The notes below the pieces were generated by a model that searched no databases, had not been told where the DNA came from, and saw only the letters and a program-made list of their open reading frames with translations. This document shows, piece after piece, positions 8,093 to 11,742 of a DNA stretch of 48,104 nucleotides (the first letter of the stretch is position 1; every line of letters begins with the position of its first letter). The DNA is from Candidatus Edwardsiibacteriota bacterium (GTDB taxonomy: Bacteria > Edwardsbacteria > AC1 > EtOH8): positions 1-48,104 of the forward strand of contig JAGVNJ010000047.1 of NCBI GenBank assembly GCA_020053305.1. The letters are read 5' to 3'. The position numbers were made by a program, and so were the translations under genes.

Positions 8093-8318
8093 TGAGACCT
8101 CTGCCAAACTAACCACTGAAACACGGAACTACTGAAAATACTAAAAAAGAGCTTGAGACCTGTTTCCCCCATGATTATTATTCCGAAAATTCAGTGTTTC
8201 CGTGCTTGTCTGGCCTCGATACTGCCGGTTGTCGAGTAGCATTAAAGCGTATCGAGACAACGGCCACTCGGCCAACGGCAGGCGCGCAAGCGTGTCAAAA
8301 CACTTTTACAGAAGTCTC
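8093..8318. repeat. MITE-like repeat copy 2
   Basis: It begins three bases after the sucD stop with TGAGACCTCTGCCAAACTAAC and ends in CACTTTTACAGAAGTCTCC (8301-8319), which is an imperfect inverted copy of that start. Inside is a second palindrome, CCACTGAAACACGGAACTAC ... AATTCAGTGTTTCCGTG, shared with the copy at 8457. The 83-base repeat (8210-8292) is nested next to the right end. An open frame of 77 codons through this region (8202-8435) has no coding character. Confidence 0.55.
8210..8292. repeat. 83-base perfect direct repeat, copy B
   Basis: Identical to 5739-5821. Here it interrupts the symmetry of the MITE-like repeat at 8093-8318, lying between its inner palindrome and its right end, as if inserted or carried as a module. 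Confidence 0.85.
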
Positions 8319-8456: not shown

Positions 8457-8636
8457 TGAGACCTCTGTAAAACTAACCACCGCCACTGGCCCCGCTGAAC
8501 GGGTAAACTGGGGTAAACCACGGAAACACGGAACTACTGAAAATACCAAGAAAAGGACCTTAAACCCGATATTTTCCATGATTATTATTCCGGGAATTCA
8601 GTGTTTCTGTGGCAAAGGGTACTTTTGCAGAAGACT
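8457..8636. repeat. MITE-like repeat copy 3
   Basis: Left end TGAGACCTCTGTAAAACTAAC (8457-8477). Right end TACTTTTGCAGAAGACTAA (8618-8636), an imperfect inverted copy. Inside is CCACGGAAACACGGAACTAC (8518-8537) ... GATTATTATTCCGGGAATTC and AGTGTTTCTGTGG, closely matching the inner palindrome of copy 2. It ends 25 bases before the hdrC start codon. Confidence 0.55.
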
Positions 8637-9116: not shown

Positions 9117-9575
9117 ACCACGGAATCACGGAAAAACCAAATAAATCCCAGAGGATTGCCAAATGAGGGAACCCCCGAACGGTAATCTAATCGATAAAGA
9201 TCTAACGGATCAGATTCTGAATGCGGCGGTGGAAGTGCATACGGTTCTTGGTCCAGGATATCTTGAGTCGATATATCAGAACGCCCTGACAGCCGAACTG
9301 AAACGACGCGGATTATCCATCGAAGAACAAAAAGAAATTACGGTAACTTTCAAAGGGGCCGAAGTTGGCAAGCATCGCCTTGACATAGTGGTCGAGAGCA
9401 AGGTGGTTCTTGAATTGAAAGCTGTTACCGCATTTGATGATATTCATACCGCCCAAATCATTTCATATTTGAAAGCGACAGGTTTTCGGGTCGGTTTGTT
9501 ACTTAACTTCGCAAAAGAGACACTGAAAATCAAGCGGGTTGTCCTATGAATTCCGTTCTTCAGTGTTTCCGTGGT
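9117..9575 (+). mobile_element. Palindromic element carrying a GxxExxY gene
   Basis: The left end ACCACGGAATCACGGAA (9117-9133) and right end TTCAGTGTTTCCGTGGT (9559-9575) are inverted copies at 14 of 17 positions. Between them lies the GxxExxY gene 9163-9549. A 52-base element with the same ends but no gene sits in the next spacer (10471-10522). Its right arm matches this one at 25 of 27 positions. This looks like a filled and an empty version of one small mobile element, inserted between hdrC and hdrB. Confidence 0.55.
9163..9549 (+). CDS. GxxExxY family protein (PD-(D/E)xK-like)
   Basis: A 128-residue protein of the GxxExxY family, named for its motif GYLESIY, here at residues 32-38. The family is related to PD-(D/E)xK nucleases. 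The matching residues appear as D74 (HRLDIVV), then E84 and K86 in LELKAV. The C-terminal half (AQIISYLKATG, GLLLNFA) is characteristic. The biological role of the family is not established. It lies in the hdrC-hdrB spacer in operon orientation, inside a palindromic element, and is unrelated to electron transfer. Its codon use is a little more AT-rich than that of its neighbours. Confidence 0.85.
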   Translation: MREPPNGNLIDKDLTDQILNAAVEVHTVLGPGYLESIYQNALTAELKRRGLSIEEQKEITVTFKGAEVGKHRLDIVVESKVVLELKAVTAFDDIHTAQIISYLKATGFRVGLLLNFAKETLKIKRVVL

Positions 9576-9589
9576 TTAAAGGAGCTTAC

Positions 9590-10471
9590 ATGAACAAGAT
9601 TTCCTATTATCCCGGCTGTACCCTTTCCAACACCGCCAAGAATTTCGACCTTTCGGCCAGGGAGTCGATGAAAGCCCTGGGCTGGGAGCTGGATGAGCTG
9701 CCCCGATGGAACTGCTGCGGCACGGTCTATTCCTTGGCCTCCGATAATCTGATCAACCACGTGGCTCCGATCAGGCTGCTGGTCCATACCCAGGAGCTGG
9801 GTCGGGATAAACTGACCACCCTGTGCAGCATGTGTTACCATACCCTGAAGATGTCCAACCTGATGGTGCAGAAGGACAGGGATAAGCTGGAGAAGATCAA
9901 CTTCTTCACCAAGGACAAGGATGCCGAGTATAAGGGCCGGGTGGAGGTGCTGCACCTGTTGGAGATATTGAAAAACGACATCGGCTTCGCCAATATCAAG
10001 GAAAAGATATCCCGGCCGCTGAAAGGGCTTAAGCTGGCATCGTATTACGGCTGCCTGCTGACCCGCCCCAAGGCCGCGGCCATAGACGATGTGGAGATGC
10101 CGACCATCATGGGCGATCTGATAAACTCCCTGGGAGCCCAGGCGGTGTACGATCCCTGTCTCACCGAGTGCTGCGGTTCCTATCACACCGTGATGGACCA
10201 GGAGGTGGTGGCCGACAAGGCCGAGCGGATAATATCGTCGGCCATAAAGAACGGCGCCGAGGCCATTGTCACCAGCTGTCCGCTGTGCTTCTTCAACCTG
10301 GATGAACGCCAGAAGAACATCCTGGAAAAGACCGGCAAGGCTTACGATCTCCCCATATTATACTTTACCCAACTGTTGGCCCTGGGGTTGGGATTGGGGC
10401 CGGAGGTTTGTAAATTCGACCTGCATCACATCGACCCCCGGCCGCTGCTGAAAGCGAAATCAATTATCTAA
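9590..10471 (+). CDS. hdrB: Heterodisulfide reductase subunit B (HdrB-like)
   Basis: A 293-residue protein with two CCG domains. The first is C10-x31-CC(42,43)-x35-C79-xx-C82. The second is C155-x38-CC(194,195)-x34-C230-xx-C233. In characterised HdrB these motifs hold two noncubane [4Fe-4S] clusters at the disulfide-reducing site, and all cysteines are kept here. The ATG at 9590 has AAAGGAG directly upstream (9578-9584); an earlier in-frame start would lie inside the preceding repeat and is rejected. The full motif set argues for real catalysis on a disulfide or a comparable acceptor. Confidence 0.92.
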   Translation: MNKISYYPGCTLSNTAKNFDLSARESMKALGWELDELPRWNCCGTVYSLASDNLINHVAPIRLLVHTQELGRDKLTTLCSMCYHTLKMSNLMVQKDRDKLEKINFFTKDKDAEYKGRVEVLHLLEILKNDIGFANIKEKISRPLKGLKLASYYGCLLTRPKAAAIDDVEMPTIMGDLINSLGAQAVYDPCLTECCGSYHTVMDQEVVADKAERIISSAIKNGAEAIVTSCPLCFFNLDERQKNILEKTGKAYDLPILYFTQLLALGLGLGPEVCKFDLHHIDPRPLLKAKSII

Positions 10472-10522
10472 CCACTGAAGCACGGAATAAAAAAACATTC
10501 CGTCCTTCTGTGTTTCCGTGGT
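10471..10522. repeat. Empty palindromic element (52 bases)
   Basis: ACCACTGAAGCACGGAA (10471-10487) pairs imperfectly with TTCTGTGTTTCCGTGGT (10506-10522). It overlaps the last base of hdrB and fills the spacer to the Fe-S gene. Its right arm, ATTCCGTCCTTCTGTG and onward, matches the right end of the gene-carrying element at 9117-9575 at 25 of 27 positions. Confidence 0.6.
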
Positions 10523-10548
10523 TAAAAAATCTATTTGGGAGTGTATAA

Positions 10549-11277: not shown

Positions 11278-11325
11278 TTCCGTTGATTACGTCGTGATTA
11301 CACCGATAAATCAAGGATTATTAGG

Positions 11326-11703
11326 ATGCCAGAGAACGACCCGTTGACAGAAAGAATCATATCCTGTTGTTTCAAGGTTCATTCCGAGTTGGGACCGGGG
11401 TTCAATGAAAAAGTATATCACAATTCTTTGATCATCATGCTTGGGAATGAAGGGTTACAGCATGAAACAGAAAAACGCTTCCCAGTCATGTTTCAAAATA
11501 AAAAGGTCGGGCAACTAATCGTCGATCTGTTGGTAGAGAATACTGTGGTCTTGGAGGTTAAAGCAGTGACCGGTTATCTGCCGGAAGTATTCAAGCATCA
11601 AACCATATCTTACCTAAAAGCAACCAAGCTAAAAGTCGGGTTGTTAGTGAACTTCGGGAATAAAAGCTGCAAAGTTAAGCGATTTGTCAATACATCAGCG
11701 TAA
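11326..11703 (+). CDS. Second GxxExxY family protein
   Basis: A 125-residue GxxExxY protein with GFNEKVY at residues 25-31, and D67, E77 and K79 (VIDLLV-type strand and LEVKAV) in the positions of a PD-(D/E)xK site. The tail HQTISYLKATKLKVGLLVNFG is the family signature. It is only moderately similar to the copy at 9163, so the two are not a recent duplication. It lies between the Fe-S gene and the flavoprotein gene. Its flanks (11281-11325 and 11704-11742, with GATTACACCGATAAATC and AAATCTGCGAAATC) look like another palindrome family, but the symmetry is weak. Function unknown. Confidence 0.82.
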   Translation: MPENDPLTERIISCCFKVHSELGPGFNEKVYHNSLIIMLGNEGLQHETEKRFPVMFQNKKVGQLIVDLLVENTVVLEVKAVTGYLPEVFKHQTISYLKATKLKVGLLVNFGNKSCKVKRFVNTSA

Positions 11704-11742
11704 TCAATAGTAAATCTGCGAAATCTTTCAAGGAGGTTATAA

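Follow-up and report, generated by a model that had tools for sequence, protein, structure and literature searches.

GxxExxY nuclease genes between inverted arms of iterated words, candidate minimal mobile elements in a bacterial hdr operon

Two small genes of the GxxExxY family, each enclosed by inverted arms, were located in operon spacers of the window (the whole stretch of DNA analyzed, 48,104 nucleotides), and the corresponding spacers of related genomes were found empty, decayed or differently filled. We consider it moderately likely that such a unit is a minimal autonomous mobile element, the nuclease of which would recognize the words of its own arms, and that gene-less copies derive from it.

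Elements of the hdr operon and their turnover among relatives

Gene order on the + strand of the window was hdrC, GxxExxY gene 1, hdrB, Fe-S, GxxExxY gene 2 and an sdhA-like gene. The following features were mapped.

8094 to 8318, unstranded: gene-less insert 1 of a high-copy family, ends GAGACCTCTG.../...CAGAAGTCTC, core words CACTGAAACACGGAACTACTGAAA; in G003 the site is occupied by 26 bp of unrelated sequence
8458 to 8632, unstranded: gene-less insert 2 of the same high-copy family, missing in G003 and G001
9117 to 9142, + strand: left arm of element 1, ACCACGGAATCACGGAAAAACCAAAT
9163 to 9549, + strand: GxxExxY gene 1, 128 aa, predicted RecB/Cas4-type PD-(D/E)xK nuclease (from sequence and model), GAA-type arm words
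9550 to 9575, + strand: right arm of element 1, reverse complement ACCACGGAAACACTGAAGAACGGAAT
10469 to 10524, unstranded: gene-less copy of about 52 bases in the hdrB/Fe-S spacer, missing from the 40-bp spacer of G003
11278 to 11307, + strand: left arm of element 2, GATTAC-type words
11326 to 11703, + strand: GxxExxY gene 2, 125 aa; G001, G003 and G005 lack the entire element
11694 to 11723, + strand: right arm of element 2, overlapping the 3' end of GxxExxY gene 2

The initial annotation had described a GxxExxY gene between inverted ends in the hdrC-hdrB spacer and an empty copy in the hdrB/Fe-S spacer. Both were recovered, and the right arms of element 1 and of the gene-less copy were indeed identical at 25 of 27 positions (chance expectation, 0 such pairs). 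The gene-less copy formed a hairpin with a folding energy of -22.7 kcal/mol (z = -6.2), which 0 of 200 shuffles equalled. A second GxxExxY element, overlooked at that stage, lies 1.8 kb downstream of element 1 and spans 11278-11723; its arm words (GATTAC/GTGATTACACCGAT) differ from those of element 1. The palindromes at 8106-8205 and 8512-8612 had been regarded as relatives of element 1. They have the words ACNGAA/CACGGAA in common with it, but their outermost boundary differs: they are the cores of the inserts at about 8094-8318 and about 8458-8632, with outer ends GAGACCTCTGYMAAAC / TTTTRCAGAAG. This gene-less family has about 20 copies in the window's genome and makes up most of 27 matches there (L001-L027); its copies have outer ends GAGACCTCTGCGAAACTAACCAC with the word palindrome inside, and some contain an added GC-rich segment (CCTGCACGCTGTAGCGTGGAG...GGTGGCGCGCAAGCGTGG).

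Orthologous operons were compared in four relatives (G001, G003, G005 and G009). The Fe-S and sdhA proteins of G001, G003 and G005 shared 87-97% identity with their window counterparts, and flanking genes in two relatives of the same genus were 92-97% identical. The Fe-S/sdhA spacer, which holds element 2, measured 465 bp in the window and 11, 11 and 10 bp in G001, G003 and G005, respectively. No two species had the same hdrC-hdrB spacer, and three species carried three distinct GxxExxY elements in it: besides element 1, a different element in G003 (protein 46.6% identical to the window's, arms ACCACAGAGACACAGAG) and a third, frameshifted one in G009. At the same site, G001 contained a gene-less remnant that is a visible internal deletion of the G003-type element, and no GxxExxY gene was found in the spacer of G005. 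The hdrB/Fe-S spacer of G009 held an S23 four-helix gene inside AATATCGAAA-type inverted ends, and both gene-less inserts upstream of hdrC were missing in G001 and G003. Further filled/empty pairs were obtained from 0.78 Mb of G003, in one of which a gene-less insert of 140 bp faces 0 bp, and at one site (L057) the window's genome carried an S23 element where G003 has a GxxExxY element.

Conservation of gene and spacer among relatives had been named as the outcome that would speak against mobility; instead, the element was missing, replaced by a different GxxExxY element, or decayed. Comparison of the hdr operons for clean insertion, as had been proposed, gave clean presence and absence, but no target-site duplication was recognizable at the filled/empty pairs, where the divergence of the relatives (about 10%) hides short ones. 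Judged by these orthologous sites, the window elements are recent insertions.

The nuclease, its arms and their words

Both window proteins were plain members of TIGR04256 and PF13366 (GxxExxY, PDDEXK_3), scoring 144.9 bits (gene 1) and 129.1 bits (gene 2) against a TIGR04256 cut-off of 35, and 139.6 and 121.2 against a PF13366 cut-off of 22. Residues D74, K86 and Y102 were invariant, E84 was conserved in at least 90% of sequences, and Q98 was common, not universal. The AlphaFold2 model (pLDDT 92) had lambda exonuclease, LHK-Exo and the Cas4 protein SSO0001 as its best PDB neighbors, with TM-scores of about 0.5, so that the nearest subfamily is not certain. The resemblance to PD-(D/E)xK nucleases that the initial annotation had ascribed to the family was borne out by the conserved D, the ExK motif and the lambda-exonuclease/Cas4 fold of the model, and on conserved residues and modeled fold the protein is a predicted nuclease of the RecB/Cas4 type. 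Searches by sequence gave no meaningful solved relatives, no relative turned up when viral contigs were searched for the conserved peptide pattern, and defence-family profiles gave marginal Cas4 and AbiEi matches, none of them convincing. Across six pairs with usable dS, dN/dS was 0.03-0.16, indicating purifying selection on GxxExxY genes. Relative to co-directional neighbors (called by an ORF heuristic), the gene was in the same versus the opposite orientation in 43:0 cases in the broad set, 30:1 in the family and 33:0 for S23. This bias is compatible with expression by operon read-through or with transcription-linked insertion.

GxxExxY genes were found in 23 of 61 genomes, frequently in several copies; the window's genome had 17 S23 genes and 11 GxxExxY genes, of which two are interrupted by frameshifts. 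All inspected GxxExxY genes of that genome had inverted ends, and the end sequences were unlike one another. For a general test, 80 loci from at least 15 phyla (as judged from record titles) were collected by a scan of genome contigs, and the 77 with adequate flanks were scored by local alignment of the upstream 200 bp against the reverse-complemented downstream 200 bp. Arm scores had a median of 20.5; the medians for mismatched pairs and for slid segments of the same loci were 8 and 8.5. The 99th percentile was exceeded by 59 of 77 loci for the slid controls and by 40 of 77 for the mismatched pairs, the latter control being conservative because words are common to different elements. Repetition of the arm test gave Mann-Whitney P values of 1e-37 and 3e-32 for GxxExxY, and of 2e-23 and 1e-18 for S23. 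The earlier expectation that GxxExxY genes elsewhere would be associated with palindromic ends was therefore strongly supported; detectable arms were missing in about a quarter of the 77 loci. An ORF-by-ORF test in G003 (score of at least 13) selected 3 of 3 GxxExxY genes; of 199 small controls it selected 8, and some of these are elements or terminators themselves. With three genes the sample is small, and the enrichment is supportive of the arm association. At one locus (L270, G056:C1:730419), both arms of a GxxExxY element were extended by GGGGAGAGG repeats for more than 60 nt.

Each arm consisted of 2-4 copies of a 7-nt word, often CRCNRAK, at a spacing of about 9 nt. Self-matches of GxxExxY arms peaked at lag 9 (range 8-10, z = 13.6), and those of S23 arms at lags 7, 14 and 21 (z = 14, 13 and 7). 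In 38 CRCNRAK elements, arm-to-arm mismatch was near zero at the positions C, C, R, A and K, and amounted to 10% at the first R, 28% at N and 17-32% in the linkers. Mismatches affected 39 of 679 word-core positions (5.7%) and 42 of 192 linker positions (21.9%; P = 5e-10); either arm could serve to locate a word, which keeps the search pattern from forcing the contrast, although the pattern does select that word form. Since the mismatches sit in the linkers and at the free position, it is the word that is conserved and not base pairing; stem pairing by itself would not protect the word while leaving the linkers free. Per-genome word counts showed G006 to be rich in CACNGAA copies without a clear cognate gene, in a comparison for which the reversed-pattern control was itself an AG-type word and so not neutral. 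On inspection of the listed arms, neither a GTAG nor a CGTC foot tetranucleotide was seen.

S23 four-helix genes (L041-L057 in the window's genome, L196-L225 in relatives) had imperfect inverted arms with a 7-nt word period, for example AGCGTAAAGCGAATAGCG and TTGACATTGGTTGACATT. About six of them occupied spacers of one operon on contig C44, and two S23 elements (L052 and L053) directly adjoined tRNA genes. In G003, a DUF559/VSR-like ORF (assigned by eye; L250, G003:C4:489054-489506) was flanked by inverted ends CCCCTCCTTGATCAAGGAGGGGA...GGGGTGGTC and is perhaps a third nuclease family carried in a palindrome.

Arm word and protein clade

Arm similarity followed protein similarity. Mantel correlations were 0.30 in the broad set and 0.38 within one family (0 of 2000 permutations as high), the partial correlation on GC was 0.20 (0 of 1000), and distant pairs alone gave 0.16 (1 of 1000). 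A maximum-likelihood tree was built from 74 proteins and is weakly resolved owing to their shortness; on this tree, a three-way word label required 14 changes, compared with 32.3 for shuffled labels (0 of 200); this label is crude, locus L273 being AG-like by eye. The word of the nearest neighbor was correct for 51 of 74 proteins, with neighbors below 0.55 similarity and a chance value of 0.37. Among 13 held-out loci, arms were present in 11, and the word label was predicted correctly from the nearest protein in 10 of these 11. The clade with GFLEKVYEN corresponded to GAT-type words, the LLES clade to AG-type words and the GPGFLESIYEEAL group to CAGGAA-type words, and by inspection both window genes matched this pattern. 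Co-variation of protein clade and arm word supports the earlier proposal that the protein belongs with its own palindrome; taken as a whole, the interpretation in the initial annotation is supported in part.

Candidate mechanism, alternatives and known systems

In the reading we favor, the element comprises about 0.4-0.5 kb, namely two inverted word arms and one small gene for a RecB/Cas4-type nuclease. The protein would be expressed by read-through from the host operon and would bind the repeated words of both arms; because word spacing varies between 8 and 10 nt, the DNA bound is probably single-stranded or unwound. Nicking or trimming at the words would then allow the element to be copied into intergenic spacers. 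Internal deletion would yield gene-less copies, which a nuclease knowing the same word could move in trans, and S23 four-helix proteins, whose arm words have a 7-nt period, may play a comparable part. Counting against this reading are the outer ends of the abundant gene-less family, which the GxxExxY element lacks, the loci with no detectable arms (about a quarter) and the want of a recognizable target-site duplication. Causation is its weakest step, and the S23 parallel leaves room for a gene that travels along as a passenger.

It is unlikely, to our mind, that the palindromes are moved by other host machinery (e.g., a Y1/HUH transposase or hairpin replication) with GxxExxY and S23 as cargo, even though many copies are gene-less and the same architecture surrounds two unrelated protein families; similarly built elements around unrelated S23 genes do mean that movement may depend on something other than the encoded protein. 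Y1_Tnp proteins occurred in 8 of 10 genomes, but the element carriers G002 and G005 had no match, which weakens HUH/RAYT mobility as a general cause. Cargo status also does not predict an arm word that follows the protein clade across phyla, and the gene is under purifying selection. Rather less probable again is an RNA-level element resembling the intervening sequences of 23S rRNA, in which the arms fold, RNase III or the nuclease excises the element, spread proceeds through an RNA or reverse-transcribed intermediate, and the protein binds RNA words. Strict co-orientation with transcription and the very good folding of the gene-less copy would fit it, as would the occurrence in parallel elements of S23, the protein of classical intervening sequences (PMC4990558). 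Against it, 8 of the 10 genomes of the family yielded no reverse transcriptase, among them the near-complete G003, which has 11 GxxExxY matches, so that mobility by reverse transcriptase is unlikely, and the concentration of arm mismatches in linkers indicates that pairing is not what is kept. Immobile regulatory or addiction-like host modules, such as operon mRNA processing sites with a dedicated nuclease, would account for operon spacers, sense orientation and purifying selection; we regard them as the least probable explanation, in view of the fast turnover at orthologous sites, the patchy (23 of 61 genomes) and multicopy distribution, frequent decay, and the lack of a convincing match among the defence-family profiles.

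GxxExxY (PDDEXK_3) and S23 are, to our knowledge, common annotated families without a role. In the open-licence literature searched, nothing was found that links GxxExxY (TIGR04256/PF13366) to palindromic or iterated ends; GxxExxY is named there in two papers, neither of which, to judge by the matching passages, concerns this question, and searches there for the arm words as text or for DUF559 with palindromes returned nothing relevant. If GxxExxY and S23 proteins are mobility or maintenance factors of iterated-word palindromes, both families gain a testable function, a large stock of short intergenic repeats in many phyla (CACAGAG, CGCCAAG, CAGATTA and ACAGGATTA types) is explained, and the old question of the mobility of S23 intervening sequences becomes directly testable. 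Through the coupling of word to clade, the protein sequence would predict the DNA word expected to be bound.

Terminal inverted repeats together with insertion polymorphism, as in an autonomous DNA transposon or insertion sequence, were found for the GxxExxY elements. Internally deleted derivatives are a further likeness to MITEs and insertion sequences; unlike these, the GxxExxY element encodes no DDE, HUH or serine/tyrosine recombinase and leaves no recognizable target-site duplication. REP/REPIN sequences with TnpA-REP (RAYT) are multicopy short intergenic palindromes with a gene product thought to recognize them, and gene-less copies are far commoner (PMC3116915, PMC8266576). The palindromes and the recognizing gene are the point of likeness, and the comparison with RAYT made in the initial annotation holds in its logic. 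It fails for the enzyme, an HUH (Y1) transposase in RAYT and a predicted PD-(D/E)xK nuclease of the lambda-exonuclease/Cas4 type here; GxxExxY arms, moreover, are built from 7-nt words recurring at intervals of about 9 nt, with the gene inside the palindrome. Mobility, with the ORF as the factor responsible, has long been suspected for S23 intervening sequences (PMC4990558, citing Ralph and McClelland 1993), and they share inverted ends around one small gene and a sporadic distribution. They lie in a helix of 23S rRNA with an S23 ORF, whereas GxxExxY elements lie in spacers of protein-coding operons (hdrC-hdrB, Fe-S/sdhA) with an unrelated nuclease, and the word period is 9 compared with 7 in the S23 elements found here. 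More tentatively than for the single element, we suggest a phylum-spanning class in which a single RecB/Cas4-type nuclease may read iterated 7-nt end words, with a protein-word code in GAT, AG and GAA classes and a parallel S23 class of 7-nt period; the two classes together would add to REP/RAYT and classical MITEs a third route by which short intergenic palindromes arise.
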